From Spirogloea muscicola (lineage: Eukaryota > Streptophyta > Zygnematophyceae > Spirogloeales > Spirogloeaceae), in assembly GCA_009602725.1 (NCBI GenBank), contig WELB01000097.1, forward strand, positions 111,546 to 175,545: 64,000 nucleotides of DNA, in the 5' to 3' direction. This document shows positions 2,641 through 39,163 of this stretch, in pieces; within the stretch, counting starts at the first letter, position 1, and every line of letters begins with the position of its first letter. Under the pieces are notes generated by a model. It did not search any database, had not been told where the DNA came from, and saw only the letters and a program-made list of their open reading frames with translations. The position numbers and the translations under genes are program-made.

Positions 2641-3103
2641 CTGCCACCAACTAGAGCTCGTCCAGAGCTCGCTGCAGACAGGCTGGTGCGCAGCAGTGCA
2701 AGAATGACAGATATGCTGCCGGCAAGCTTATATTGGCCAGAAGCACATACTTACAACGTGCATTCTCTAGTCTGGCAACTCTCTTCAAGCAAGGTGTCGA
2801 GGACCTACACACAACTTACGCTGTCAACTGCGGCTGGTAGGAGGTCATGATAGCGGTTTGGTCATACTAGTGCTGCAACTTCCCGTGCTCCACCACCGCG
2901 TGGCCAGCACTCTAGGTTGACGCTGGGCACGTCGGAGAGTCACTTCTTTCATAGCACAGGGCTTCTCTTTATGTAGCCCCATGCTATGCACTAGCTCTTG
3001 CCTGAACGGTCGCCTGAACAGTGAATTGGCTTTACTATCTGCCTCCTCCTCTTTCCCATGCGCACCGCGCACCTTCTCCTCTCTTCGCAGTTCACAGTCA
3101 CGG

Positions 3104-3190
3104 CCCCTTCGAACCTTGTCAATTCTTTTCGGGCTGGCTTCTCACAGCCCTTGCACCCATTGGGAGAGCCACTTCTCATCCTTTGGAAGA
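3104..3190 (+). repeat. LINE 3' tail only
   Basis: Contains TTCGAACCTTGTCAATTC, the hairpin GGGCTGGCTTCTCACAGCCC and GGGAGAGCCACTTCT, as in the copies near 28.2, 29.7, 52.4 and 53.1 kb. No coding sequence is attached, as expected of extreme 5' truncation. The flanks at 2640-3100 and 3190-3330 show no gene. Confidence 0.7.
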
Positions 3191-3382
3191 GAGCCCCTTT
3201 GTTCTAAACAGGTTCTTTCACTTCGTTTCTCAGCCCTCACCCCGTTGCTTGATTGGGAAAAGCAGCAGCTTTCCAATCCACGGGCACCAAGGGACGTGAA
3301 ACCAAGGCTGTTCCTCCGGCTAGTCCCTGCCGCGCCGCCGCCGCCGCCGGCGCCGACGACGCCGCCGCCCGGGCCGCCGCCG

Positions 3383-3634
3383 NNNNNNNNNNNNNNNNNN
3401 NNNNNNNNNNNNNNNNNNNNNNNNNNNNNNNNNNNNNNNNNNNNNNNNNNNNNNNNNNNNNNNNNNNNNNNNNNNNNNNNNNNNNNNNNNNNNNNNNNNN
3501 NNNNNNNNNNNNNNNNNNNNNNNNNNNNNNNNNNNNNNNNNNNNNNNNNNNNNNNNNNNNNNNNNNNNNNNNNNNNNNNNNNNNNNNNNNNNNNNNNNNN
3601 NNNNNNNNNNNNNNNNNNNNNNNNNNNNNNNNNN
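3383..3634. other. Assembly gap (252 N)
   Basis: A run of 252 N flanked by GCC repeats on the left and CGG/GGC repeats on the right, probably an unsequenced trinucleotide-rich leader of the following gene. Confidence 0.95.
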
Positions 3635-3642
3635 CGGCAGCA

Positions 3643-3683
<41 letters not shown>

Positions 3684-4754
3684 TCCGCCAGCAGCGGCCT
3701 GTACAACAGCGGCGGCGGCGACTCGTCCAGCGCCGTGCCGTTGGCGGGCTTCGGCGGCGGGCCGGCGCACGGCACGCTGACTGAACCGGTGTGGGAGACG
3801 CTCAAGCGCGACGTGCTGCGGGTGGCCAGCAACCTGCAGTCGGTCGTGTTCCCCAACCCCTACCGCGACGACCCCGGCAAGGCGCTGCGCGACTGGGACC
3901 TCTGGGGCCCCTTCTTCTTCATCATCGCCCTCTCCCTCCTCCTCTCCATCTCCGCCACCAAGCACAAGGCGAGCCTGCCCACCGTGCTGGCCCTGCCTTG
4001 AAGTGGTGGCATGCAGCCCCAGGCCTTGCTCCGCACACTGGAAGCTTGCAAGGCAGCCAATGCTGTGCAGTCTGGCATGTCAACCTACACTGCAAGTGCC
4101 TTTAGCATCCCATCTTGCTGCATAAGGTCAAACCAAACGTCCATTCTGAATGCTTGTCACGTGGAGCACGTTCTCATATACCTTTGTATTTTCTCTGCTG
4201 ATGAAGAACTCCGTGGCATTGTGCATGCAGAGCGAGATCTTTGCGACGGTCTTTGGAGTCCTCTCAATAGGGGCCGTGGTGCTCACGCTCAATGTGCTGC
4301 TCTTGGTAAGCATCAGCAAGAATATGCTTCTGCTGGTCGCAAGCAAGAGAGTTACTTTTGGCACTACCACAGCCTGTGATATATATAAGTGCAGTTTAGG
4401 GAGTTCTTCAAGAGTTATTCCTGATGCCATTCTTTCGCCTGGTGGAGATTGTCACTGACGTGTTGACTTCATTTTCTTGGCTGCACTTGCCAGGGCGGGA
4501 AAATCATCTTCTTCCAAAGCCTTAGCCTGCTGGGATACTGCCTCTTCCCTCTTGACATTGGAGCACTTGTGTGCCTGGTGTACAAGAACAGGATATTCCA
4601 CAGTCTCGTGGTCCTGGTTACCCTGGCATGGAGCGTCTGGTCAACTTACCCTTTCGTGAGCGCAGCCGTCCCAGAGAGCAGGAAGGCGCTTGCAATCTAC
4701 CCGGTGTTGCTGCTATACTTGTCCATTGGCTTCTTCATCCTTGCTACAGACTAG
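3635..4754 (+). CDS. YIPF6-like Yip1-domain Golgi membrane protein (5' end lost in gap)
   Basis: Yip1-domain protein of the YIPF6 subgroup, a multi-pass membrane protein of Golgi/ER vesicle traffic that works with Rab GTPases. Exons read as (gap)-3968, 4231-4305 and 4494-4754, all joined in phase 0. Exon one carries the diagnostic [14 protein letters not shown] and [10 protein letters not shown]; exon two [20 protein letters not shown]; exon three [26 protein letters not shown] and the last membrane spans. About five hydrophobic segments fit Yip1 topology. The N-terminus is glycine/serine-rich, coded by GGC repeats beside the N gap, so the start codon is not visible. The first intron has a GC donor (AAG|GCGAGC) if the family alignment is followed. 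Identity is strong; the N-terminal length is unknown. Confidence 0.88.
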
Positions 4755-4763
4755 GGAGCTGCC

Positions 4764-4880
4764 CGATTGTAGAGCTTCACGCTGTCTTGATCAGATGATC
4801 TTGCACCATAAAGCCCTCAACGGCCAATTGTAGAGCTTCACGCTGTGTCAATCAGATGGTCGTGCACCACGAAGCCCTGC
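4764..4880 (+). repeat. Tandem duplication, period 61 bp, downstream of YIPF6
   Basis: Two adjacent copies of a unit containing TTGTAGAGCTTCACGCTGT, then TCAGATG and TTGCACCA/GTGCACCA before AAGCCCT, offset by 61 bp (4767 and 4828). It begins about 10 bp after the stop codon, so it probably lies in the 3' UTR. The remaining DNA to 5304 shows no gene. Confidence 0.75.
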
Positions 4881-5304
4881 CTCTCCAACAGTGTCTTCTT
4901 GACCACCAAGCATTACATCGCAGCTTTTGCACGCTGGGATCATCATCCACAGTATGTGCGATTTGTTGCCGTAATGTCTTTGCCTGTTTCCTTTGTTGAT
5001 AATAGTACTGTAGAGATGCTCACAGGAAGCGTGGTTGTGGGCAGCATTGCTCGTCGTCACTCAAGGAGCAGCTTCCTGTCGTGTAGCTGGACTGCAGGCA
5101 GCAGAGCTGTTGAGGTTTTGAAGAGCACTTCATCAGCAGTATGGTACTACTGCTATGTGATCCTGAGGATTTATTTCAGAGTAAATTGGAGGGCAGGCAT
5201 CTAGGTGGAGTTGGACATCGGAATTGTCAAAGTTCTACCTGCATACAGTTGGTCAATGAAATCCATTTGATTGAAGGAGAAACTGTGCAGCAATACTTCT
5301 AGGA

Positions 5305-6893
5305 TCATGATGGTGCATCTCCACCTTTAGCAGCAAAGTGCTTCTCAGCACGCTCTGCCCTCCTTGTGGCAAGGGCGCCCATGAACTTCTTCCTGCCGGG
5401 AAGTGTAACAAGCGTGCACCCTGCTTCTTCCAGCTTCTGCTTTGCCGAAGCGCTGAAGGAGGCTGCCTTGATTGTCGCCTTGACGCCCAAGTCACCGGCT
5501 CCCAAAATCTGTTCAGGCAACACACCGCAGTCAGACCTTAAAAATTGTCGACTGGAGCTCATGACATGGACTACGGCCAATGAAAACGACACCATCACCC
5601 TCAATAGCAATCACTGATCAAAACAGGAGCTCAGAGTATGGGGCGATAGGTGTACATTGTCACGTTTAGGAAGCAGAAGCTGACCTTTAAGGGCAATTTG
5701 CGATCGCGACCGCTTGGATTGATGATACGCTTGGCGATCAAGCTTTCCAGCGTGATCTCCTCATCCTCCTCCACACCAAAGGCAGCAATGTCTTCGAGAT
5801 TGACGGACACATACTTGGGCAAGCCGGCACCCATGCCTGCGACACAACATTGTGACTCATTTGCCAGGTCTCGAAGAGGGGTCTTGCAGTGGTCAAATGG
5901 GTGGGGAAGAGAAGCGCAGCACGAAGCATTCAGAAACTCGGGCGTAACATTGCGCCCAGGCATTCTGCTGTGCATGGAGCAAGGGACGGCCATCGCTGGA
6001 GCTCACCTCCAGCAATGCCCTTGAGCTTGGGGAGCCGGCGGTAGAGAGGCATCTGGCCACCCTCAAACCCGGGCCTCACGCCTGAGCCGGAGCGCGACTT
6101 CTGGCCACGCATGCCGAATCCGCAGCTCGCGCCCTGCCCCGCTGCTATACCGCGGCCCTTGCGCTTGTTCTTGCGCCTCGAGCCAGGCTGCGGCGACAAG
6201 TTGCTGAGCCTGAACCGGTCTGCGCAGGGCCAAGGGTGCACGGTCATCAGGACGAGGCGTCCAGGCAGGACACCGTGGTGAAGGCCCAAAGGGAGGGCAG
6301 TATTTCCGACGTCAAGGTATTCCGATGGCTTGCTGGCCAAGATTCGACGCAGCGGCAGCGTTTGGCCGACAAGGCACAGCAAGGATGCGATATGGGGATC
6401 CGCCAACTCCATGGACGTTCCAAGGAGCTTGCTGCTCGCTGGCGACGGGACAGCCAAGCAGGCCAGCAACATCCAAGACGAGCGCGACCGAGGGGGCAAC
6501 ATAGGCTGGTCGGGCCGAGCGGATGTCCTCACCGTCCTCAGCGTCCGGCGTCTCCGCGGCCGCAGCCTGCGCCTTTGCGACGACCACTGCCGCGCCTGGT
6601 CGCTTGCCGAGGGCCCTCCCGGCCTTGGGCGTGGCGGCGGCGGCGCTCGCGAGCGGCCGCGGGCCCCAGAAGGACGACCTGACGACGAGCGACGACGCCA
6701 TCTGCGCCGCCGCCACAGCGAGGTCAGGCCTCAAGCCCGGGGCTGCGAGGAGCGGCCTCGAGACACAGAAAGCCTCCGCGACTGCGAGCTCGCGAGGGCT
6801 CACAGTGCGCGGCACGGCGGAGAAGGCGCGCCGCGAGGGCGCGGCGGCCGCCGCGCGCGTCGCGAGGGCGGCCGTGGCCGCCGCGGCCGCCAT
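5305..6893 (-). CDS. RPL15: Plastid 50S ribosomal protein L15 (uL15), nuclear-encoded
   Basis: Bacterial-type uL15 of the plastid large ribosomal subunit. Exons on the minus strand: 6893-6533, 6219-6007, 5836-5685 and 5508-5305, with consistent phases (309 residues). Exon two holds the L15 core: [47 protein letters not shown]. Exon three reads [14 protein letters not shown]..., exon four [19 protein letters not shown] up to the C-terminus. The long alanine/arginine-rich N-terminus looks like a chloroplast transit peptide. Two starts are possible: ATG at 6893 in a strong GCCGCCATGG context, or ATG at 6701 giving 245 residues and a more usual MASS... transit peptide. It is divergent from the HAD phosphatase, with 140 bp between the upstream ATGs. 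Confidence 0.9.
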
Positions 6894-7033
6894 GGCGGCT
6901 GGCGCGGGGGAGGGGGAAGGGCGGGGCCGGACTCTAGGGTCTCGATTAGAAGACCTAAGCCTTAAACCCTCCAGCTCAGGTTTAGTCCTGACCCCCGGGC
7001 TGCCTACTGCCCGCCGACGTGGGGGCGCTGGCC
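6894..7033. promoter_or_regulatory. Short bidirectional promoter region (L15 / HAD phosphatase)
   Basis: Only 140 bp separate the upstream L15 ATG (-) from the HAD phosphatase ATG (+), so the two genes probably share a divergent promoter. I see no TATA box. The flanks are very GC-rich, while the middle (about 6935-7000) is less so. If L15 starts at 6701 the interval grows to about 330 bp. Confidence 0.5.
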
Positions 7034-8758
7034 ATGGCGGCCCCGCCGCTGGCGGCGGCGGCGGCGGCGGCGGCGGTAAGCGGGGCACCACTTGTGGAAG
7101 CAGAGCTTGCCGGACGCCGGCGGCGTCCTCCCTGCGCTGCGCCGCTGCCAAGCTCGGCTCGTCCACGGGCAGCTGCCGCTGGCAACAGCGCCGGGAGCAG
7201 CATTGGCGGCGGCGGCGGCGCTGGCGGCGGCGGCGGCGGGGAGAGGGCGGCGTTCTTCGACGTGGACGGGACGCTGGCGGCGTCGAACGTGGTGGCGGCG
7301 TACGCGGTGGCGCGGTGGCGCGAGCTGGCGCCAGTGGCGCGCGCCGCCTGGCTGCCCTTCTTCGCCGGCAAGGCGCTGGCGTACCTGGCGCTGGATGCCG
7401 CCGACCGCGCCGCCTTCAACCGCGCCTTCTACCGCAACTACGCCGGCCGCGCCGCCTCCTCCAAGCCCGCCATGGCGGCGCTCGTGCACCAGCAGTACCT
7501 GGCGCCCAGGTACGGGGCGCCAAGCAATGGCGCCCAGTAGCTCCGCCAGCCCCCGCTGCTGCCCGGCCTGCCAGAGCTACGCGGTGCCCAGCACTGATGG
7601 CGACCCTCCGCCGCTTCCTGCAGGTCCTTTGCCGCCGCGCAGGCGCACATCCGGAGCCTCAAGCAGCAGGGCTTCCGCATCGTGCTCGTCACTGGCGGCC
7701 TCGACTTCTTGGTCGCACCGCTGGCCGCGGAGATCGCAGCAGGTGGCGGGCCCCCCTCCGCACACGCCGGCTGCGGGCCCGTTGGGCTGTGCAGCTGCCT
7801 GTGTCACCTCCGTCGTCTTTTCCTTTTGTTTGTCGGCCTGGCCCTCGACAGAGTGCAGAGGCTGGCAGTTCCAGGCCCGCAGCTAGTCGTTTCAGAGCGA
7901 AGGTTGCATGCGTGCACTATCATGGTGCTCCGTGTGCGCCACGGGTGTGTGCACGGTCCTTGACCCTCTGCACTTCTCTTTCTGTGAACCACAGAGGCTC
8001 AGCGTGCCTGACGAAGTGCCGCTTTAGCGAGCCGAGCTGAGAGTGACTGATGCTGGGCGACGGTTGCTAGGAACCCGTGGAGACTGACGCGCTGGCTCGT
8101 GGCTTCGACCCTCCACAGATGCTGTCTTTGCTGCCTCACTTGTAGAGGAGAAAGGCAGGTATAGCAACTGTCATGTACGATTCACTATTGTGATCAAGCT
8201 GAAATAGAAGCACATGCAGTGGTTGTTCAAGGAAGTCCGGCTTGCCCCTTACTCCTGCTTGTGGCTTTGCTCTATGGCAGGCACTAATAGTCGCTTGCAG
8301 TGCGTCTGAGCATGCAGGTTCACTGGCGAGCTGCAAGGCGCTGCACTTGGCAGTGCCGAGAAGGGCGCAATTGTCCGGGCATATGCAGCTGAGAACGATA
8401 TTTCTCTGGCGAGCTGCCACGCGTACGGCGATAGTATCGCTGACTTGGCCATGCTGGAAAGTGTGGGTGTGCCTCCCCCCACTCATGTTGGCAGTATTTG
8501 CTAGCAAGAGGACGGCACTGCAGTTGAAGACAACGAAGCAACTCTTGTCACTTGGTAACCACCCCGTGCAGTTGCAAATTTTCTGTAAGGCCAGACATGT
8601 ACTAGCATTAAAATTATCCTATGTTTATGTTGTCTTGCTGTGTATTGTCCTGACAGGTTGGACATCCTCATGCAGTGAGGCCAGACTCCCGGCTGAAAAA
8701 GTTAGCGGTGCAGCGATCTTGGCCCATCATAGACTGGTCTATACCCACAGCAACATAG
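7034..8758 (+). CDS. HAD-superfamily phosphatase, subfamily IB
   Basis: HAD-IB hydrolase, the class of SerB-like phosphatases; substrate unknown. Confident exons: 7034-7509, 7624-7742, 8318-8462 and 8657-8758. Motif I is FFDVDGTL in exon one, motif II LVTGG in exon two, a lysine-bearing AEKGAIVRAYA and motif IV HAYGDSIADLAMLE in exon three, and VGHPHAVRPDSRL in the last, as in bacterial HAD-IB proteins. The N-terminus is alanine/glycine-rich from GGC/GCC repeats, perhaps a targeting peptide or flexible leader. Exon two ends in phase 1 and the 8318 exon needs phase 2, so at least one small exon between 7743 and 8317 is unplaced; the text around 8070-8115 is a candidate. Superfamily call is secure. 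Confidence 0.82.
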
Positions 8759-9213
8759 GGACCTGGATGACAGCAAGCTCATCTTCTGCCATGCAGACTG
8801 TGCAATGGCATTGCCCCAAGCCGATGCAATACTTCCGTTGTCTATTCGTCGCAAATAGAGCGTACCCTGTTTTATGCATTCCTCGAGGCTTCAAGAAAGA
8901 AAGAAAGAAAGAAGAAAGAAAATGCGAAGCATTGCCACGGCCATTATAGGACAATTTGTACACAAGGCGCGAAAATATGCTGCCTGCAAGGATGAGACCA
9001 TGAGCGTCTGGCTAGTACCCTCTGTTGCCAACAAGCATATACATTACACCGCTGAGGTGATGCTGAGTCAGCTAAGACAATCCCCAGATCAGGTAGTTGA
9101 GAGCGAGCAGCTAAAATACATGAATAAAACAATTGTGGGCCTGCTGAGGCTATCTTTTGGCACTGAGCTGGCGGTAGTGTGGGTAAAAGGATTCAAATTG
9201 ATAAGCAGGGCTG
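8759..9213. other. Tail-to-tail intergenic region with GAAA microsatellite
   Basis: Lies between the converging HAD phosphatase and PI4-kinase genes. Holds a short (GAAA)n tract at about 8893-8920. No coding signal seen. Confidence 0.5.
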
Positions 9214-12200
9214 TCAGAATTGGCAGGACGTGCCAAGGCGCTGAGCGCTTGTGCTGCTGGTCCGACGACGTCGTCTGCACGCTTCATCCACAATATCCTT
9301 GAAGCAGTCTACAAATGCCTCCCATAGCTGCTCGCTCAGATCCGCCAGGGTAAGAGGCTCAGCTTGGCGCAGCTTTCCGCTAGCCAACGATGGCACTTTT
9401 CCTCCAGGCGAGAATGAGAACGCAGCCTGCTGGAAGCTGCTGCCAGCTGCCTTTGGGTGCCAGCGAGGAGTCACTGGGGCCGTCTTGCCATTGGTGTACA
9501 AAGTGTTGTTCAGGCTTGTGCTCCGAAGCCCCTGACCCTTTACGACTGTAGCTGAGGGCCACTTCCTTGTTGCCTGGTGCACTTCTGCGTCCAGTACATT
9601 CGCATGGCCATCTGTTCCCCGCAACAGATCGAAGCCTGACAAGCCTCCTCGCGGCGCAAAATTGGGTGGCGACAGGCCTTCACCTTCTTCCTTCAAGCTC
9701 ATCATTGAAGTGGTGAAGCTCCCTGGCGTTGTGAAAGCATCACAAGACAGCGGCGATGGCGAGAGAGACTTGGCGGAGTAAACAACATAGGGGCTGACTG
9801 GGAGAAGTGAATGCTGGAGAGGGCGGGAGTAGTCAGCTGTCAGACCCAACGAGGCACAGTCCTCGTCTGCGTTATCTTGATCGGCATCCAAACCCATGTC
9901 AAGGTCAAACTGCTCAGAGAGTGTCTCCAAATCTTGATCAGCTCCAGGAGAAGTACAAATCTCACCAGACAATTCACGAGAGCTTGCCTCTTCAACCTGA
10001 TACATTAAGAAGGTACTTGTAAGTGATACGCGTCTTAAAAAAGCCTCACAAAACTGCTGATTGATTGCCAGCATAAGATGACATGCTTCTGCATTTGATA
10101 AGCTTGTCATATGTGAAACATTCAAGCTCAAAAGGAATCTGGCATCTCCATATGCCTATTTGCTGGCTGTGAATACTTGTACACATTCTGGCAAAGGCAA
10201 GGACTGGCACAAGGACGCTGGAGAGAAAAGCCGACCTGGTATTTAGCCAAGAAGCAGGCTGTCTCGAATTCACTAGGCTCCTCATCAAGTCCACAGATCT
10301 CCCGACTCATCATTGCACCAATATCCGCCAGAGTCAAACCAAGAGCAGCAGCGCACTTCAAGAACGTGGTGGCAAGCACCAGCATGCGCAGGCAGCCCTC
10401 TCGAAGCATGGGAAGCTCCGCCCGCAGCATATTCACTTCCTTGTAGACGTCAAGCTTGTCAATGTAGTCCAGCTCCTCAGCTGAAAATGGATGTGCCGCC
10501 TAAGTTTGCCACTTGGCTGACCAGTTAGTATCCCGACTCACTTGTAGCTCTCGGAGCAAAGCTTGAATTGATCCAGTCAGCTGAGGTCAAGCCAACAGGA
10601 CATTCAAGATAATGTCACAAGCCTCCTAAGAATTCTGTGACTTTGGCGATTGCCAACACCTCTGACATTTAAGAGGGCTGGAATCATCTTGCTTGTAATT
10701 CCTTTCAGCAACCCATAACTTGGTCTGAGAATATTGTGCAAGCAAGTACCTGAGGCCAGTGAAGCCACTCAAAGTAAGCTGACTCTAGAGTCTCAGGTAG
10801 ACAAAAGCCATGATCAATGGGTATAAGGTCAACCACATCCTCCACAGTCAAAGCGGACGAGCTCCTGTGCAGTTCCCTGCTCCGGCACCGTCTCACAAGT
10901 ATATTTCCTGTGAACCAACGCCAGCAATATAGCACGTGACTCTGGCAACATCGTCATGTGAGACGTTGTCCTCAGCACTGATTGACCAGAAGAGGGCTAC
11001 TTGAGAAAATTTTGAGCAAGATGACTAGGAAGGCTTACTGACAACCTTGCATCAAAATCATCTCTCGTACTACTGGACAACGAGGGGTGTGCATTTGAGA
11101 AGGACCATAACATACGCTCACCGGCATGCCTATCTGTATTGAAGACACGAAGATCAAGAATTGCAATACGGTGAACAGCAGCAACAGGGAATCTTGAAGT
11201 CCCATGCTCACTGGCATCATAGTCATGCTGGACATATTCCTGGAAAGACCCAATTTTAGACAGCATGCCTCTGGTGCTCTTGAAGTCCTTCGCAGCATGG
11301 AAGATGGGGTGTGTAATTTTGACCATTGCCGTTGCTGGGACGCTGGCAAAATTGTCATGATCTAACAAGTACGCTGCAACCTCCCTGACACCTGCTTCTC
11401 CAACACGTATTGCCCGTTTCAGGCCTGGCTGTCCAAGAAGTCGCCCTGTGTAGCCATTTGGATTGTTAGGGGCAAACGGCTCTTCATCGGTTGGCTTCAC
11501 TATGCTAATGTTGCTGCCGTGCCTGTTCCTGAAGTAATATGCACCTCCAAGACCCCCCGTGGCCTGGGCTGGCTCCACACCATAGTCAAGTGCAGCTGCT
11601 GCCTCTCGCAGCAGGTATTTGATCTTCTTACAGCAATTGATACTTCCCACGATTTCAAAAGGCTTGCTCTTGTCTTTCACGAGTGGTGTTGGAGGAAGTG
11701 GTGACAGGCATGGACTGCTGGAGCTCCTGCTCAAATCCCTCGTCAGAAGTAATGCTGCATCGTTACGTACCTGCCAAGGAACACATAGCATTGTAACGTC
11801 TGGTCAGGAGTTGAACCTGTGCCCATACACAATGTCACCTGCATATATAATGCTCTTGACCGATGCCAGAAATTGAGCAACCTTGTCACTGCAACAGCAA
11901 TGTATTGTGCTAACAACATCATTGTATCCAGGCTGACTCAGATCTGGTGTAGCTGCTTACAAACCTGTGCCTAGTACTCGCTACTGCACGTATTATGCAA
12001 ATACAGGCAGCCATGCAAGGCTTGGAACCACTATCCTCTTCCTCAGCACTTGAAGCTAAGAGAAGCAGTACCTCACTGAGGTCCTCTCCAAGAACATGGT
12101 CGCCAAAGACAAGGTCGCAATGTTCAGTAGGCACTCTCAATGCTGCCTGGACCTTCTTCTTCACCGTCTCTGCTTTGTCGGCTCGATCCACCTCAAGGCC

Positions 12201-27470: not shown

Positions 27471-27775
27471 AGCCCCCACGACGTCACGGGCATCTCACCC
27501 CGATCACTGGGTTGGTGATGAGTTCGCGGCCCTGGCGATGGATGTACACGGGGCTTTCGGCAGCCGCTGGCTGGATCTCCTTCAGCGGCTTGCCCGCCAG
27601 GCCATTGACCGGCGGCCGGGTCTGCCAGGGGCGATGCCCAGCTTCAACGCCGCCGGTTCGCTCGCCCAAGTCTTCCGCATGCGCCTGGCTGTATCGTTTC
27701 AACGCTCCCTTGCCCACGCCGTCCACACGCGAGCAGGCCGTGCTATAGCCGCCGCCTCTCGGTTTCGACGAAGTG

Positions 27776-28433
27776 TGTAAGGAACCTCGCCCTACACACG
27801 CAGTTAGGGTGAGCAGTCCTTCTTGTAGTTCGGCTGTAGCGGGTTTAGGGACCAACCCACTACACAGGCGAAGCACTAGCGCATAAGCGCAGCGGAAGAC
27901 AGGCCCCGTGGCGCCGCCGTCCGGCGGCGACTCCACCTCCTGGGCGCAGGCCGGCGCAGCAGGCCCCGCAGCAAGGTGCGGCGGCGGCTGCGGCGGCGAG
28001 CAGCGGCAAGGCTGCTCCTGGGCTTCACCGGCTCGAACTCCCTCGAGCCTCCGCCCCCAAGGCTCTTCGTGCTTCCCCGTGCCACCCCCCCTCCAGGAGT
28101 GTGAGCGGGTCGCCCCAAGGCCTGCCCTTGCGGCGGTCCCCCCTTGGTCCATCCTCCCCCGTTCTGCCATAGCCTCTTCAGGCCCCGCAGTCGCTGCTTA
28201 GCTCGTAGTTTGGCCCCTTCGAACCTTGTCAATTCTTTTCGGGCTGGCTTCTCACAGCCCTTGCCCCCATTGGGAGAGCCACTTCTTCTTGGCAGGGTGG
28301 AACCTGGCGAGGGTTAGTCCAGGACGGGCGGGACTTGCCCGCACCTGGGCGGGCCCACTTGTCCATCAAGCGGCTAGCGGTCATGTAACGCTAACAGCAC
28401 CGTGTGGCATAACCAAACGGCTGGATCGTTACA
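27776..28433 (-). mobile_element. Solo LTR (Ty3-gag element family) with 5-bp TSD
   Basis: Minus-strand LTR with ends TGTAACGATCC...GGTTCCTTACA (TGTAA/TTACA inverted ends). Flanked by AAGTG at 27,771-27,775 and AAGTG at 28,434-28,438. It matches the LTRs of the gag element at 35.2-38.4 kb over its length (CAGCCGTTTGGTTA at one end; GCGTGTGTAGGGCGAGGTTCC at the other), apart from an internal insertion of a LINE tail at about 28,142-28,290. No internal retroelement sequence remains, as after LTR-LTR recombination. Confidence 0.88.
28142..28290 (+). mobile_element. LINE 3' tail inserted inside the solo LTR
   Basis: About 150 bp starting TTGGTCCATCCTCCCCCGTT and running through TTCGAACCTTGTCAATTC, the hairpin GGGCTGGCTTCTCACAGCCC and GGGAGAGCCACTTCTTC. 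It is nearly identical to the 3' region after the LINE stop at 52,348. The matching LTR near 35.4 kb lacks this block. Confidence 0.8.
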
Positions 28434-29888: not shown

Positions 29889-30313
29889 TGTTGAAGATAG
29901 AAATATGGTGAATCGGCGGGTCGGGGTGGGTGACCATCCCGACCGTCTAATTGGGCCGTGAGAGTCTCCCCTGGATAAGGGAGGCCTCGGCCACCCATCG
30001 GAACACCCCATATATATCTGAGGCCACGCGGTGCGCCCGTGCGCCCTAGCCATGGCTGCCACCCACCTTGGGTGAGGGCGGAGCCTGTGCTGTCAGACTG
30101 ACTGACTGTCTGAGATCTGAATCTGTCTGGCGCCATGAGCGCATCTGCTTCTGTGCCGCCGCGTCGAGGGCGGTCTGCTGGGCCCATAGACAAGGGCAAA
30201 CGTCCGATGGAGGACTTCAACTGGCGGAAGGAACAATCTGAGAACACTGACTACAACAGACAGGAACAGGTACAGGAGCAGATACAGGAGCGGCCAGCCC
30301 AGGAATTTCAACA
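29889..30313 (+). repeat. 5' LTR of the copia element
   Basis: Contains a TATA-like TATATAT at 30,011-30,017, a seven-codon upstream ORF (30,052-30,075), a short inverted repeat GGTCGGG...CCCGACC near 29,917-29,942, and the start codon of the main ORF at 30,135. The transcription start is inferred to lie between the TATA box and 30,135. Confidence 0.93.
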
Positions 30314-33300
30314 GGTTATGGGCCCACCCCTTGGGGGTTCCCTAGGTTCGCTCCCTGTTCTGACTCCCAAGCTAGCCAGAGATACCAACTGGTTAGTCTG
30401 GAAGTATAAAATGAAGAAGCTGCTTCAGTTTCAAAATGTCTGGGATGCTGTAGAGCCTCCAGCTGATCGAGGGCTTTGTCGGCCCTTCTCTCGTGAGAAT
30501 GTTGTAGCCTCAGCAATTCTTGCAGCAAATCTGGCTGATGAAGAGGTGATAGGCGTTGTCAACCTGTCTCTGGCCAGTGGCATCTGGGAGTATCTCAAGA
30601 ACAAGTTTGAGAACCGAGGAACTGACAGGGCTTACTACCTCAGCATGCGCTTGCGCGAGTGCAGAAAGGAGGAGGATGAGCCCATCCAAGCATTTGTAAG
30701 CAGGGTAGAATCATTGGCCCTTCAGCTGCAAGACATTGGAGAGGAGGTTCCGGTCCGATTCTTAGTTCTTGCCATACTTATGGGGCTCCCGCCTGCATAT
30801 GATACTGTCAGAGATACATTGCAGATGGTCAGCACCGACGAACTGACTGTAGAATATGTGCTGGCTCGCCTCCTTCATAAGGAGCGAGCATTGGAGGAGC
30901 AACATCGACTTCTGACAGGTTCTCTGACAGGATATCAGATAGGACCTCCAACAGGCTCTCTGAACACAGGTTCGCTGACAGGTTCTCTGATAGGCTCTCT
31001 GACAGGTGCACAAGCAGCGCTGCTGGCTAGACGCCAATCTGAGCAAGACCTTCGACACCACTTGAATCAATCGAGGCTTCATCAGCACAATGTTGCTCGC
31101 AGTCTTCGGAGCGGGACTGGTGATAGTAGTCGTCTGAGTGAAGATCAGTTTGCAGGATGGAATAAGAATCCTCTGTACCCTAGAACTTGCTTCTACTGCC
31201 GTGAACCTGGTCATGTGATCAACGACTGTCCCAAGAAGAAGGCTCTGGGATCTGGTAACAATAGTAGAAGAGGTAGAGGCAGCTATGCTGAGGGAGAAGC
31301 TCACTTGTCTAGACAATCTGACAGGTCGAATTGTGATAGCTGGCTGATCGATAGTGGAGCGTCTCACCATCTCACTTACAGGCGGGATTGGCTCCACAAT
31401 TACCAATCTGTTCCGGATTTCAAGATTTATCTGGGTGATGATAGTGTGCAGCCTGCTGTGGGAAAAGGAGAAGTGCAGCTGCAAGTGCCTACCCTCCATG
31501 GCACTGAGACACAACATCTGACAAACGTATATCATGCTCCTGGTTTGGCGTCAAATCTTCTGTCTGTTTCCCAGCTCTTAGACCAGGGCTATCAAGTTGT
31601 TTTTGACAGAGATATCTGTACTATCACGCGATCTGGTGTTCCCACTCTGACAGGACGCAGGTCAGGAGATCTGTTTACTCTGAACGGACAGGTGCAAGTA
31701 CAGGCTGTGGAAATACAGAATCAGGTGCAGAAACAGATGCAGGTGCAGAAACAGATGCAGGTTCAGGGCAGGGTAAATGTTTCTGAGTCTGACAAAAAGA
31801 CGTTTGAGCAATGGCATGCTCGACTGGGACATCCCAATGTTCAGCGGATGAAGAAGCTGAAGAGTATGGTGCATGGAGTAGATACCCTTACACAAGATGT
31901 TGAGTCTGAATTTTGTCGGAGCTGTGCTCAAGGGAAACTCCATCTTCAACAACCGCTTGCTGGTGAGCACTATAGAGCTTCTACACTTCTGGAGCTGGTG
32001 CATTCGGATGTCTGTGGTCCTATGCAAATACCTTCTTTAGGGGGCAGCAGATATATTTTGTCCTTCATTGATGATGCCAGCCGATGGAGCAAGGTATATT
32101 TTCTGAAAAACAAGAGTGAGGTGCTGGAGAAGTTCGTGCGTTTCAAAGCTGCAGTGGAGTTGCAGACAGGGAAGAAGCTCAAGGCTCTTAGATCTGATAA
32201 TGGTGGAGAGTATACTTCTCAAGAGTTTGAACGGTTCTGTAAACAACAGGGTATACACAGGCAATTGACAGCAACCTATCGTCCTCAACAGAATGGTGTG
32301 GCGGAAAGGTGGAATAGATCCGTCATGGAGATTGCAAGGTGCTTACTATTTCATTCTTATACACCATCAGAATTTTGGGCTGAAGCAGTCGCAACGGCTG
32401 TTTATCTGAAGAATAGAATGCCTACTAGTGCAGTAAAAGACATGACGCCACAGGAGTTCTGGACTGGAAAGAGACCTACGGTTGCCCACCTTAGGGTATT
32501 TGGTTGTACTGCGTGGATGCATGTTCCTACTGAGATGAGACACAAGTTGCAATCAAAGGCTCGTCAGTGTGTCATGGTAGGATATGGTGAACACGTGAAA
32601 GCGTGGAAGTTGTTTGATCTTGAGAACAGGAGGATGGTGTTCAGCAGAGATGTAATGTTTGATGAACAGAGAAGTCCAGACTATTCTGCTTTCCCGTTAC
32701 GGCCATCTGAGACAGTGGGAGAAGTGCAGTGGTGGCCTGTATCTCAAGAGCCTGACATTGTGGCTACTGTGGAGGCAGGGTCTGAATCTGGCGATGGAGT
32801 GGAAGCAAGGACAGGAGGTGACGATCTGGAAGAGACTACTGCTACATTGGGAGTATCCAGGACAGATGTTCGTGCTTTTGCTGCTGTAGTGTTACATGAG
32901 CCTCTCACAATGCAAGAGGCCATGAGTAGCGATGCAGCACTCAAGTGGAAAGCAGCAGCAGAAGCAGAACTAGATTCTATCAAGGAGAACAAAACTTGGG
33001 ATTTGGTAGAGTTACCTGCTGGCAGGAAAGCGATCCCCAGCAAATGGGTGTTCAAGATCAAACTGAAGGGCGATGGGTCTGTAGATCGATATAAAGCACG
33101 CCTTGTGGCCAAAGGTTGTGCTCAGAAGGAAGGGATTGATTACAACGAGACATTTGCTCCAGTGGTTAAAAATAGTGCTGTCAGAAGTTTGCTGGCTATG
33201 GCAGCTATTCATGATTTAGAAGTAGAACAGATGGACGTCACCACAGCGTTCTTGAATGGCGATCTTGAGGAAGAGATCTACATGCAACAGCCTGCAGGTT

Positions 33301-34478: not shown

Positions 34479-34903
34479 TGTTGAAGATAGAAATATGGTG
34501 AATCGGCGGGTCGGGGTGGGTGACCATCCCGACCGTCTAATTGGGCCGTGAGAGTCTCCCCTGGATAAGGGAGGCCTCGGCCACCCATCCGAACACCCCA
34601 TATATATCTGAGGCCACGCGGTGCGCCCGTGCGCCCTAGCCATGGCTGCCACCCACCTTGGGTGAGGGCGGAGCCTGTGCTGTCAGACTGACTGACTGTC
34701 TGAGATCTGAATCTGTCTGGCGCCATGAGCGCATCTGCTTCTGTGCCGCCGCGTCGAGGGCGGTCTGCTGGGCCCATAGACAAGGGCAAACGTCCGATGG
34801 AGGACTTCAACTGGCGGAAGGAACAATCTGAGAACACTGACTACAACAGACAGGAACAGGTACAGGAGCAGATACAGGAGCGGCCAGCCCAGGAATTTCA
34901 ACA
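34479..34903 (+). repeat. 3' LTR of the copia element
   Basis: Copy of 29,889-30,313 with one visible difference (C at 34,590). It repeats the start codon and first 59 codons of the polyprotein, here followed by a stop in the flanking DNA. Confidence 0.95.
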
Positions 34904-34908
34904 GTAGT

Positions 34909-35227
34909 ATCCTGCTTTCTGCGCCATCCGGCCCTTTCAGACCTTGGTCATTCCTTTGAGCTGGCCGCCACTGCTGTCAATATGGTAAAGCTGCTTCTTT
35001 CTATTCTGTGTGCTGGTCCACCCCTGTCCGTCTGCAGAGGTCCATGGCTCGCACGCAGCATCTGCGTGCCGGTCGTGCCCTCGCTGCTGCCTCTGGCCCT
35101 GGCCAGGGGACCCGCTACCAGGAAACCAGTTTCTCTGACCTGCGGCTGCTTAGCAGGGGTTAGTGAGTGTTTTGTAGCTGCTTGGTTCCATTTGTGCTGG
35201 CTTCAGCGCTTCTCTCAGCAGCCTCTG
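34909..35227 (+). mobile_element. LINE C-terminus and tail remnants
   Basis: Tail-like CAGACCTTGGTCATTCCTTT then GAGCTGGCC at about 34,938-34,965. A C-terminal frame at about 35,030-35,162 gives ARTQHLRAGRALAAASG and FSDLRLLSRG before a stop. Confidence 0.55.
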
Positions 35228-35773
35228 TGGAATGAACCAGCCGTTTGGTTAAGCCACATGGCTCTGTTGGCATGTCATACCCGGCTATTTGGGACAAGTA
35301 GGCCGCCAGGTGGCGGGCTGGCTTGCCGGGCAAGTGGCCCGCCCAGAGGCGGGCCCCGCCAGAAATACCCCTCGCTAGGATCCGCCAGTTTCAGGGAGGA
35401 TCTTTGGCCCGCCGCAAGGGCAGGCCATGGGGCGACCCGCTCACACCCCTGGAGGGGGGGGGGGGCACTGGGAAGCACGAAGAGCCTTGGGGCGGAGGCT
35501 CGACAGGGGAAGCCCGAAACGGTGAAGCCAAGGAGCAGCCTTGCCGCTGCTCGCCGCCGCAGCCGCAGCCGCACCTTGCTGCGGGGCCTGCTGCGCCGGC
35601 CTGCGCCCAGGAGGTGGAGTCGCCGCTGGACGGCGGCGCCACAGGGCCTGTCTTCCGCTGCGCCTATGCGCTAATGCTTTGCCTGTCTAGTGGGTTGGTC
35701 CCTAAAGCCCCTACAGCCGAACTCAAGAAGGACCGCTCACCCTGACTGCGTGTGTAGGGCGAGGTTCCTTACA
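35228..35773 (+). repeat. 5' LTR of the gag element
   Basis: 546 bp. Shares the GC-rich middle and the end CTGACTGCGTGTGTAGGGCG...TTACA with the solo LTR and the 3' LTR remnant. The outermost 5' bases (TGGAATGAACC) have drifted from the TGTAACGATCC of the solo LTR. Confidence 0.82.
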
Positions 35774-35777
35774 ATTT

Positions 35778-35789
35778 GGTATCAGAGGT
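35778..35789 (+). promoter_or_regulatory. Primer binding site, initiator tRNA-Met 3' end
   Basis: TGGTATCAGAGG begins four bases after the LTR end and differs in one base from the common plant LTR-element site TGGTATCAGAGC. The element therefore used standard 3'-end tRNA priming, unlike the copia element next door. Confidence 0.85.
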
Positions 35790-36293
35790 AGTCTTGCATC
35801 CATCGCGCTTGTGACTTATTGTGCTCGTCGCTGATGATGCAAGGATCACCCTGATGTGCTGGTCTGACCTTTTTCTGTCAAAGATAAAGCGCTTGCCAGA
35901 CGTTGGTCCGTGAGGCGGCTCAGCCGAAGCGCCGGGTGCGGAGCCATCTTCGCGCAGTGAGCCAGCAACGACCAACGCCAGATTGACCGACTGATCCTTG
36001 TGGACCACTTGCTGCGTTCGCTTCTTTTGAGGTGTGGCTTGAGCCTGCAGCCTTTGTGTGGTAAGGTCAGTCGTGTGGCCAGCAGTGATCGTGTGCATCG
36101 GTCCTGGTCATATCTGCGGCTGTCTGCCTGCCTGCTGATTGAGGTGTGGAGTTGCGCGCTGTCTTGCTTGCTCGCTCGCTGGTGCATCAGTCTTGCGATG
36201 TCCTGTATTGCGGTATGGAGTGTGTGGTTTGCTGACTGTTGGAGCCTGAATTGATCACTCAGTGTCCTTCAGACAGCATGATATCGCACACCT

Positions 36294-37580
36294 CCAGTGC
36301 GCGGCCGAGCCCTCCTCGGGAGGCAGAGCGGTCGGCTGCTGAGGCAGCGGCTGCTGCAGGGCCAGCTGCTGCGGCAGTGGCTACTGCGGAGCACGCCCAG
36401 TGAGGGGCACGCCCACGAGGGGCACGCCCACAAGGGACACGCCCAAGCGGGGCACGCCCACGAGGGGCACGCCCAAGCGGGGCACGCCCAAGAGGGGCAC
36501 GCCCAAGAGAGGCACGTCGAGCTGGGAGCCGGAGGCCAGGAGGGCTTGTCGGCTGGGGACCTGCAACGAGTTGCACTCCTCACGCAGGATCTGGCAGCAG
36601 TCCAGCCTACGACAGACCCAGCTCAACACCGGCTTTTTGCAAGGATCTGCGCGGAGCAGCGCGCCCTCCTCGTCCGGCAGCGCGCCGAAGAGCGGCATAT
36701 GCAAGAGGTGGGTGCCTCGTTGCATCTGATGCTCAAGAGCAGCGGCAACCCTGAGTATGGACTTGCCAGGGCCCATGCACCCAGACAGTTCTCCGGTCAC
36801 GACGATCGGGGAGGGTTGCAGCCATGGCTCGATGAGATGGATGAATGGTTCGTGTGCTCCAACACGGACGCGGGGGCACGCGTGCGCCTCGCTGCTACCT
36901 ATCTCACAGGGGAGCCCCGGGAGTGGTGGAACACTCTGAAGAAGGGTGATGCCCGAGGAGTACAATGGCTGGGACTTCTTTTGCAGCTCGCTCACGTCAG
37001 CCTATGCTGACCCACATGCAGAGCTGCGCGCCCGCAATGAGCTTGACGCTCTCCGCATGAAGGGCGAGGGAAGTGAGGCCTTTGAGCCCTACGTGTGGCA
37101 ATTCCGTCTGGTGCTGTCCAAGCTACGCAGCGAGCCAATGAAGCCTATTGACCAAGGCCAGCGTTCCAAGGCTGGACTGCCTACTCTACTCGCTTCCGCA
37201 AATGGGTCGCGGTGGATTCCGCGATGGCGCAACTTGTCACGGACTTCACCAAGATGGTGGAGCACGCCCGCAAGGTGCTTAGCATGCATGACATTGCCGG
37301 TGCGAGCAAGCGTTCCCTGCTGGAGGCAGGCGGCTCTGATGCAGAGCGAGGCAAGAAGTGGTTCAACCCAAGGCAAGGCTTTAACGCTCATCCTCAAGGC
37401 GGCTTCCCCAAGCATCTGGTGGAAGGCGCTGGCTGCTTCAAGTGCGGTGACAAGAGCCACCAGCTCAGGGACTGCCCGGCGGCAGCTCCCTCTTCCGAGA
37501 GGAGTGGCGCAGCGAAAGCGTGGTGGGCCCATAACCCACAGGTCAAGGGGAAGAGGGAGCTGCCGCCGGGCAGTTCCTGA
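36294..37580 (+). pseudogene. Ty3-type gag, frameshifted
   Basis: Retrotransposon gag in three pieces of different frame: an N-terminal part with tandem HAHEGHAHKG-like repeats and LQPWLDEMDEWFVCSNTD...LTGEPREWWNTL (to about 36,945); EEYNGWDFFCSSLTSAYADP...LRSEPMKPIDQG (to about 37,185); and DFTKMVEHARKVL...CFKCGDKSHQLRDC (37,212-37,580), the CCHC knuckle. The order fits retrotrans_gag plus zinc knuckle of Ty3 elements. At least two frameshifts make it non-functional as one protein. No pol follows. Confidence 0.8.
36400..36512 (+). repeat. 15-bp minisatellite within gag, about eight units
   Basis: Head-to-tail units of the type GAGGGGCACGCCCAC with A/G variation at the first bases, coding for five-residue steps (GHAHE/GHAQA). 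Length fits continued expansion without frameshift. Confidence 0.8.
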
Positions 37581-38131
37581 GCTGGTGGCTCTTGTCACCG
37601 CACTTGAAGCAGCCAGCGCCTTCCACCCGCGGCTTGGGGAAGCCGCCTTGAGGACGAGCGTTCAGCCTTGCCTTGGGTTGGACCGCTTCTTGCCTTGCTC
37701 TGCATCAGAGCCGCCTGCCTCCAGCAGGGGACGCTTGCTCGGACCGGCAATGTCCAGCGTGCTAAGCACCTTGCGGGCGTGCTCCACCATCTTGGTGAAG
37801 TCCGAGACAGGTTGCGCCGTCGCAGAATCCACCGCGACCCAATTGCGGAAGCGAGTAGGCAGTCCAGCCTTGGAACGCTGGCCTTGGTCAATAGGCTTCA
37901 TCGGCTCGCTGCGTAGCTTGGACAGCACCAGACGGAATTGCCGCACGTAGGGCTCAAAGCTCTCGCTTCCCTCGCCCTTCATGCGGAGAGCGTCCAGCTC
38001 ATCGCGGGCGCACAGCTCTGCGTCTGGGTCGCCATAGGCTGACGTGAGCGAGCTGCAAAAGAAGTCCCAGCCATTGTACTCCTTGGGCGTCGAGCCCTTC
38101 TTCAGAGTGTTCCACCACTCCCGAGGCTCGA
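36912..38131. repeat. Long inverted repeat of gag, arms about 580 bp, spacer about 56 bp
   Basis: Left arm 36,912-37,494 and right arm 37,551-38,131 are reverse complements with scattered mismatches. The minus strand of the right arm encodes EPREWWNTLKKG, EYNGWDFFCSSLTSAYGDP, KLRSEPMKPIDQGQRSKAG and DFTKMVEHARKVLSTLDIAG, matching the plus-strand left arm. The arm ends where the 3' LTR remnant begins. Confidence 0.88.
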
Positions 38132-38401
38132 CAGAGGGAGTTCGAACCGGTGGAGCCCAGGAGCAGCCTTGCCGCTGCTCGCTGCCGCAGCCGCCGCTGC
38201 ACCTTGCTGGGGGGCCTGCAGCGCCGGCCTGCGCCCAGGAGGTGGAGTCGCCGCCGGATGGCGGCGCCACAGGGCCTGTCTTCCGCTGTGCCTTTGCGCT
38301 AGTGCTTTGCCTGTGTAGTGGGTTGGTCCTTGAATCCCCTATAGCCGAACTCAAGAAGGACTGCTCACCCTAACTGCGTGTGTAGGGCGAGGTTCCTTAC
38401 A
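38129..38401 (+). repeat. Truncated 3' LTR of the gag element
   Basis: Matches the 3' half of the 5' LTR from GAGGCTCGACA to GGTTCCTTACA and is followed by the TSD CTCTG. The missing 5' half was replaced by the inverted gag arm. Confidence 0.8.
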
Positions 38402-39163
38402 CTCTGGCTTGCGCAGCGGGCTTGCTCTTCCCTGGCCCCTTCGAACTTTGTTCATCTTCTTTATGGGCTGGCCTCTCCCAGCCACCGCCCTCTCCTGGAA
38501 GCGTCTTTCTCCCCGCCCTTGCCCACTTAGGAAGAGCTGTTCTTTTAAATTGGCCTCTCACATTACTAGGAAAATGGGGACTATAAGCAAGTAACTTGTG
38601 AGGTAACACTTCGTAACCTCTAATCCGCAGCCGCAGCCACAGCGATTGCTCTATCTTCTCCTCTGTCTACCTTGGACATGCCTTTGGGCTGGCTATCACA
38701 GCCATTGGTGTGAATTGAAGAGCTGTTTCTTCTGGTTTGGACATTGTTCATTTGACAGCAAAGACGGATTGCTGAAGTGATCGGTTGGCAAGAGCTTTAC
38801 AAGCACAGCTCAGGCAGTGCTGCGCTGGTATGTAGATCCAGTCATGATTGTGCAAAGCGTAGCCAAAGACAGCAGATCTGTTGAGACATCCACGAAAAGG
38901 CATCAACATATGGTGCCAGAAGAATGAGATGATTGAGTCACTCTGACAAATTAGTGCTACTTCAATATACACCATAGCCAATTTGGGCCTCAGCAAACTT
39001 AGGTTTTTGATCACCTTCCCGTGGTAGTGCAAAGCATTACGGCGGCTTAGCCGGCGGGCCGGGTGCGCTGGACCCTTGTTGAGCGTAGCCATACTCAGAC
39101 GGGATAGCATGGGTTGCAAATGACACTGACTTGAGATGCGGCATAATATAAGACAGGAGAAGC

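Follow-up and report, generated by a model that had tools for sequence, protein, structure and literature searches.

The 64,000-nucleotide stretch of Spirogloea muscicola DNA analysed here (the window, which lies on a 557-kb contig of a 153-Mb genome in 471 contigs) contains a copy of an LTR retrotransposon that is decayed and non-autonomous. In it, a part of gag is followed by an inverted copy of the same part, and the two arms are separated by a piece of the initiator methionine tRNA (tRNA-iMet). The inverted repeat of this copy probably arose as a hairpin during reverse transcription that was closed through the tRNA-iMet primer. The tRNA spacer, which was overlooked in the initial annotation of this DNA, bears most on the origin of the element.

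Organization of the element

The element extends from position 35228 to 38401 and is flanked by perfect 5-bp repeats (Table 1). As proposed in the initial annotation, it is bounded by CTCTG, carries a 5' LTR and a primer-binding site (PBS), and has lost the 5' part of its 3' LTR; the 5' LTR is complete, the PBS is of iMet type and the 5' CTCTG begins at 35223. In other copies, the position corresponding to 35228 is likewise the start, with the sequence TGTAATGAACC, and several of them have 5-bp repeats of their own, e.g. L011, L013 and L016. A further CTCTG at position 35262 was rejected as the target-site duplication, being internal to the LTR and recurring in most of the copies listed.

The window copy lacks pol. 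Its gag-like 5' frame gave no Pfam match at an E-value of 0.01, and a weak zinc-knuckle match (PF00098) of arm 1, at 37212-37577, scored 17.7 bits, below the cut-off of 20.8. Within the short overlap at the second junction, one letter is rare among gag copies (2 of 18). No Rfam family matched the window at gathering thresholds, and ARAGORN detected no intact tRNA in it. The 15-bp array of the gag-like frame was also found at C170 (L012), there with many more copies. Elsewhere in the window, another LTR copy of the same family lies on the minus strand at 27772-28136, and a 426-bp direct repeat of 99.8% identity occupies 29889-30314 and 34479-34904, about 4.6 kb apart.

Table 1. Features of the palindromic element (window coordinates)
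Feature	Position	Strand	Remark
5' target-site duplication, CTCTG	35223..35227	.	LTR start at 35228 set by comparison with other copies
5' LTR, complete, TG...CA, 546 bp	35228..35773	+	
PBS, TGGTATCAGAGG	35777..35788	+	Complementary to the 3' end of tRNA-iMet including CCA
Leader	Between PBS and gag		
gag-like 5' frame	36297..37007	+	
15-bp tandem array	~36387-36516		Inside the gag-like 5' frame
Arm 1, gag, sense	36912..37496	+	
Spacer (hairpin loop), 52 nt	37497..37548	+	
tRNA-iMet nt 5-52, sense	37502..37548	+	96% identity
Arm 2, gag, antisense	37549..38129	-	
GAGGCTC, overlap of 5-7 nt at the second junction	38123..38129	.	Covered by both the inverted-gag and the LTR alignment
3' LTR remnant, last 272-279 bp, intact ...TTACA end	38130..38401	+	
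3' target-site duplication, CTCTG	38402..38406	.	

Relatives and other inverted copies in the genome

Relatives with pol, for which the initial annotation had suggested a search, are represented by a full-length relative (L061, on C119) with protease-, reverse transcriptase-, RNase H- and integrase-type matches. Its domains follow the order of Ty3/gypsy elements (RVP_2, RVT_1, RT_RNaseH, Integrase_H2C2 and rve), with scores below the curated cut-off for rve, RVP_2 and one of the two pieces of RVT_1. Matches to the internal region of at least 100 bp and at least 85% identity were present in 33 of the 39 fetched stretches (yardstick included); these correspond to about 30 distinct places, as C29a and C29b overlap and C233/C233b and C209/C209b each look like one element.

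Both orientations of the internal region were found at five places (C175, C143, C62, C22 and C126), four of which have an inverted duplication of the same region, a frequency that is rough, the stretches having been chosen by similarity and mostly with flanks of about 1.5 kb. The turns at the inverted loci mostly consist of abutting copies or overlaps of at most 9 bp, and gaps of 14 and 40 bp occur as well. On C22 (L056, C22:986500-996400), copies of the same family form a head-to-head fold-back at 2714-6021 and 6594-9901 of the fetched stretch, with arms of 3.3 kb and 96.5% identity that extend beyond it. By length and identity, this locus is the better hairpin candidate.

The palindrome and the question of silencing

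The initial annotation had described an inverted gag of about 580 bp. As far as an assembly can show, this palindromic structure was confirmed as real, with arms that align in four ungapped pieces of 93-97% complementarity. The spacer, given there as about 56 bp, is indeed present, but measures 52 nt and is mostly tRNA-iMet sequence. Across the whole palindrome including the spacer, BLAST reported 90.4% identity; in the alignment of the arms, 35 of 579 compared sites differ, with eight additional gap columns, and the longest stretches of perfect duplex measure 52, 51, 45, 43 and 40 bp. The match is far beyond chance, and a chance origin of the inverted repeat was rejected. So was a repeated palindromic family, as no second locus was found for the centre of the palindrome (40 of 1042 candidates scored) or for the junction of inverted gag and LTR (40 of 117).

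Transcription from the 5' LTR would yield a long hairpin RNA, and the fold predicted for the RNA of 36912-38131 is indeed the near-continuous duplex that had been expected (-1255 kcal/mol). A silencing role of the element is possible: tentatively, and with considerable doubt, it may be a natural source of hairpin RNA from which siRNAs silence the gag family in the manner of Mu killer, which would be compatible with the origin proposed here. Besides the predicted fold, this would be favoured by Piwi domains (four loci) and paired RNase III domains (three loci), which suggest that Argonaute- and Dicer-type small-RNA machinery is encoded in the genome; in-frame TAGs in the Piwi matches, viewed at one locus (L085), were taken to be intronic. 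Furthermore, between 74 and 128 of the 949 21-mers of the arms occur exactly in each of L003-L008. Against this stands the divergence of the arms from the gag copies found, the closest of which match arm 2 at 93% and arm 1 at 90%.

The base changes in the arms bear on the same question and were analysed in exploratory, uncorrected tests. CpG transitions account for 9 of the 24 private changes of the arms and, among other copies, for 16 of 189 (p 0.0004); with a different yardstick, the counts are 8 of 24 and 17 of 185 (p 0.003). This excess fits past methylation of the arms. Within the element the difference depends on the definition used and to that extent weakens the case for silencing: the arms (8 of 24) and the rest of the same element (6 of 39) differ with p 0.12, whereas p was 0.013 when changes with up to two sharers were included (19 of 48 and 8 of 49), both comparisons being exploratory. 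No significant CpG excess over other copies was seen in the LTRs (3 of 27), the leader (2 of 10) or the single-copy part of gag (1 of 6) of the element. The excess is also mostly missing from the arm region of the other inverted copies (0 of 14, 0 of 3, 0 of 0, 0 of 3 and 1 of 9), a further point against silencing; in one row of C126, 4 of 7 changes in another region of gag are CpG transitions.

A piece of the primer tRNA between the arms

The spacer matches nt 5-52 of the genome's tRNA-iMet with an E-value of 2.6e-13, the differences being an altered G18 and the loss of one base near nt 48. In place of nt 1-4 stands filler of about 5 nt, a point against closure through the primer. It lies in sense orientation between sense gag and antisense gag, and corresponds to the very tRNA that is matched by the element's own PBS. 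Both arms lose homology to the family at the identical gag nucleotide. The spacer is absent from all other copies that were compared past this gag break, and their continuations differ there.

Throughout the 153-Mb genome, 13 tRNA-iMet-like sites were found (all 13 candidates scored), namely three genes and ten fragments including the spacer. ARAGORN identified the genes in L049, L050 and L052 as tRNA-Met with the anticodon CAT, and from their sequence and the match to the primer site we take them to be of the initiator type. A 24-base core had seven occurrences in the genome with at most two mismatches, and its reversed control had none.

Another of the fragments lies on C241 (L070), where positions 1249-1660 consist of an LTR-like end, TGGT, an exact copy of tRNA-iMet nt 1-39 and an inverted LTR-like end. 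By its similar layout, this appears to be a second tRNA-looped palindrome, from another LTR-like family with a half-tRNA-type primer site. The tRNA pieces of C31 and C77 end at nt 39 as well, beside the same LTR-like end, and this end followed by GGTTATGGGCC was detected at 20 places with at most two mismatches. The remaining fragments (two each on C94 and C40, and one each on C35 and C204) have similar but less clear settings. In L057 (C94), L059 (C40), L071 (C35) and L072 (C204), the tRNA-iMet bodies lie near TGGTATCAGAG-like and CTCTGATACCA sequences; some of these loci share flanks, perhaps as copies of a single element derived from a tRNA. The pattern of a primer-site hairpin matched two places, on C40 and C199. 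At the latter (L063), TGGTATCAGAG and CTCTGATACCA are 58 bases apart with no tRNA body between them, and inverted repeats (81%) lie further out. In L083 (C3) and L084 (C36), LTR-like ends with GGTTATGGGCCC primer-type sites are inverted tail to tail at a distance of about 760-930 bp, and the inverted arms are 92.7% and 96.6% identical, respectively.

These loci also bear on a different origin, in which break repair or microhomology-mediated template switching inverted the element after its insertion and captured a fragment of a tRNA gene. Such a rearrangement would account for the short overlap at the second junction and for the recurrence of inverted rearrangements in the family. It is nevertheless unlikely, as the captured filler comes from the tRNA that primes the element itself, the genome holds another nine fragments of tRNA-iMet, several of which are joined to LTR-like ends, and both outer LTR ends of the window copy are intact and flanked by the target-site duplication. 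Counting against closure by the primer, on the other hand, no tRNA piece was found in the five other inverted gag loci.

Probable common source of the arms

In the initial annotation, the differences between the arms were taken to suggest that they had come from different elements, joined for example by template switching. The analysis lent no support to this claim. A gag tree was built from 26 rows, comprising both arms and 24 further sequences. It places the arms as sisters (support 98/93), as does a tree restricted to the first 420 alignment columns, which lie away from the centre (98/91). Relative to the majority of seven close copies, the arms have 14 differences in common, four of which (arm positions 200, 245, 255 and 575) occur in no other row. 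The arms (35 of 579) have not diverged more than the two LTRs of the element (24 of 279; Fisher p 0.19), the corresponding K2P distances being 0.063 and 0.092. One source thus explains the arms better than two elements do, since they are sisters and no more diverged than the LTRs. The rows of the tree were taken from the candidates with the best scores (40 were scored in each search), and a part of the matches was cut out as loci, so that a closer relative of one arm may be missed. Gene conversion between the arms might produce the same grouping, although this grouping persists outside the centre. As a point against a hairpin closed by the primer, the LTR tree does not pair the two LTRs of the element, its branching being weakly supported.

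It is accordingly quite unlikely that the palindrome is a recombinant cDNA in which template switching between co-packaged RNAs joined two gag copies, with the tRNA as incidental filler. The 35 differences between the arms and the longer branch of arm 1 (0.046, compared with 0.021 for arm 2) would agree with such an origin; the sister relationship (in a tree of a subset of gag copies), the four private changes and a divergence within that of the LTRs speak against it. Palindromes are known long-read artefacts, but a fold-back during assembly or library preparation is highly improbable here in view of arms that differ at about 6% of sites, a spacer that is a tRNA fragment, and target-site duplications and outer LTR ends that are in place.

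Proposed route of formation

The preferred reading, a reverse-transcription hairpin closed through the primer, accounts for the shared end point of the arms, for the sense orientation of the tRNA and for the sister relationship of the arms. In such a route, the minus strand would start within gag, at 37496, and be attached to a piece of tRNA-iMet that ends near nt 52, and the plus strand would copy back to the same gag point. The 3' end of the plus strand would then be joined to the other end of the tRNA, through either ligation or template jumping at the tRNA 5' end, giving sense gag, tRNA and antisense gag. A second switch at GAGGCTC, a junction that is present in the sequence and whose place in the order is conjectural, would have added the 3' part of the LTR. 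The intact LTR ends and the matching 5-bp repeats suggest that the molecule integrated as one unit and point to an integrase-mediated insertion of the finished molecule. As the last step, arms and LTRs have accumulated a similar degree of divergence. Successive end-to-end jumps between templates (from gag to tRNA and on to gag) could lead to the same product; ligation and jumping both fit it, and we cannot tell them apart. The reverse-transcription origin suggested in the initial annotation is probably right, and the tRNA-iMet loop, the intact LTR ends and the target-site duplication support it, as do the similar layout of C241 and the inverted rearrangements at other places of the family.

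As a further point against closure by the primer, the tRNA piece ends near nt 52, neither at the 3' end of the tRNA nor at nt 39 as in C241, so that the route requires either a template jump or cleavage of the tRNA at an unusual position. Seven of the nine positions of tRNA nt 44-52 could pair with the gag break, a value matched by 2.4% of 2,390 positions in one relative, and by duplex energy the break, again in one relative, ranks only within the top 7-25%. Pairing of the tRNA at the gag break as a means of priming is suggestive at most.

Discussion

Inverted transposon copies are possible seeds of small-RNA silencing and, to our knowledge, sequence rarely records how they arise. Here, a piece of the priming tRNA forms the loop and points to a particular kind of copying error during reverse transcription. 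If this were general, errors in the copying of retroelements would be directly linked to a source of hairpin RNAs, and a primer tRNA between inverted arms would be the signature to seek in other genomes. A much wider reading, that in this genome the primer tRNA repeatedly closes retroelement cDNA into tRNA-looped hairpins that integrate as built-in silencing triggers, the CpG decay of the arms being a fossil of methylation directed by hairpin RNA, is speculative and rather unlikely. In the open-licence literature, judged by title and the start of the abstract, no tRNA-looped palindromic retrotransposon copies were found.

With Ty3/gypsy-type elements such as L061 (C119), the window copy shares LTRs, an iMet-type PBS, gag and a target-site duplication of 5 bp, the latter seen here and in other copies; unlike them, it has no pol, its 3' LTR is truncated, and it carries an inverted gag whose loop is tRNA. 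The initial annotation had cited Mu killer of maize as an established precedent for silencing by an inverted copy. In the excerpted text of Skibbe et al. (2012; PMC3440606), the proposal of an inverted copy does exist, but the long-hairpin model is debated: two short antisense transcripts are described in silencing plants, and a long hairpin only as a possible contributor, which makes Mu killer a weaker precedent than the initial annotation implied. Going by the same excerpts, both Mu killer and the window element carry a partially inverted copy of a transposon gene with a proposed fold-back RNA; Mu killer, however, derives from a DNA transposon and has genetic evidence for silencing, whereas the window element is known from sequence alone (PMC3440606).

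Half-tRNA priming, as described for Drosophila copia, and internal tRNA cleavage in Ty5 (excerpts of PMC5371799) resemble the situation in C241, C31 and C77, whose fragments end at nt 39 by an LTR-like end. The window spacer is likewise a truncated tRNA-iMet but, in contrast to the priming described in these excerpts, its fragment ends near nt 52 and lies inside gag, not at an LTR end (PMC5371799). Complex LTR elements of the Triticeae have similarly been attributed to abnormal template switching (PMC1950507, main text), but differ in that the words inverted, inversion and tRNA are absent from that main text. The 2-LTR junctions of HIV-1 with inserted primer or PBS sequence concern circular viral cDNA, and the excerpted part of that report does not describe any palindrome of inverted gag looped by a tRNA; what they have in common with the window element is primer-derived sequence that is kept at abnormal cDNA junctions (PMC5618025).
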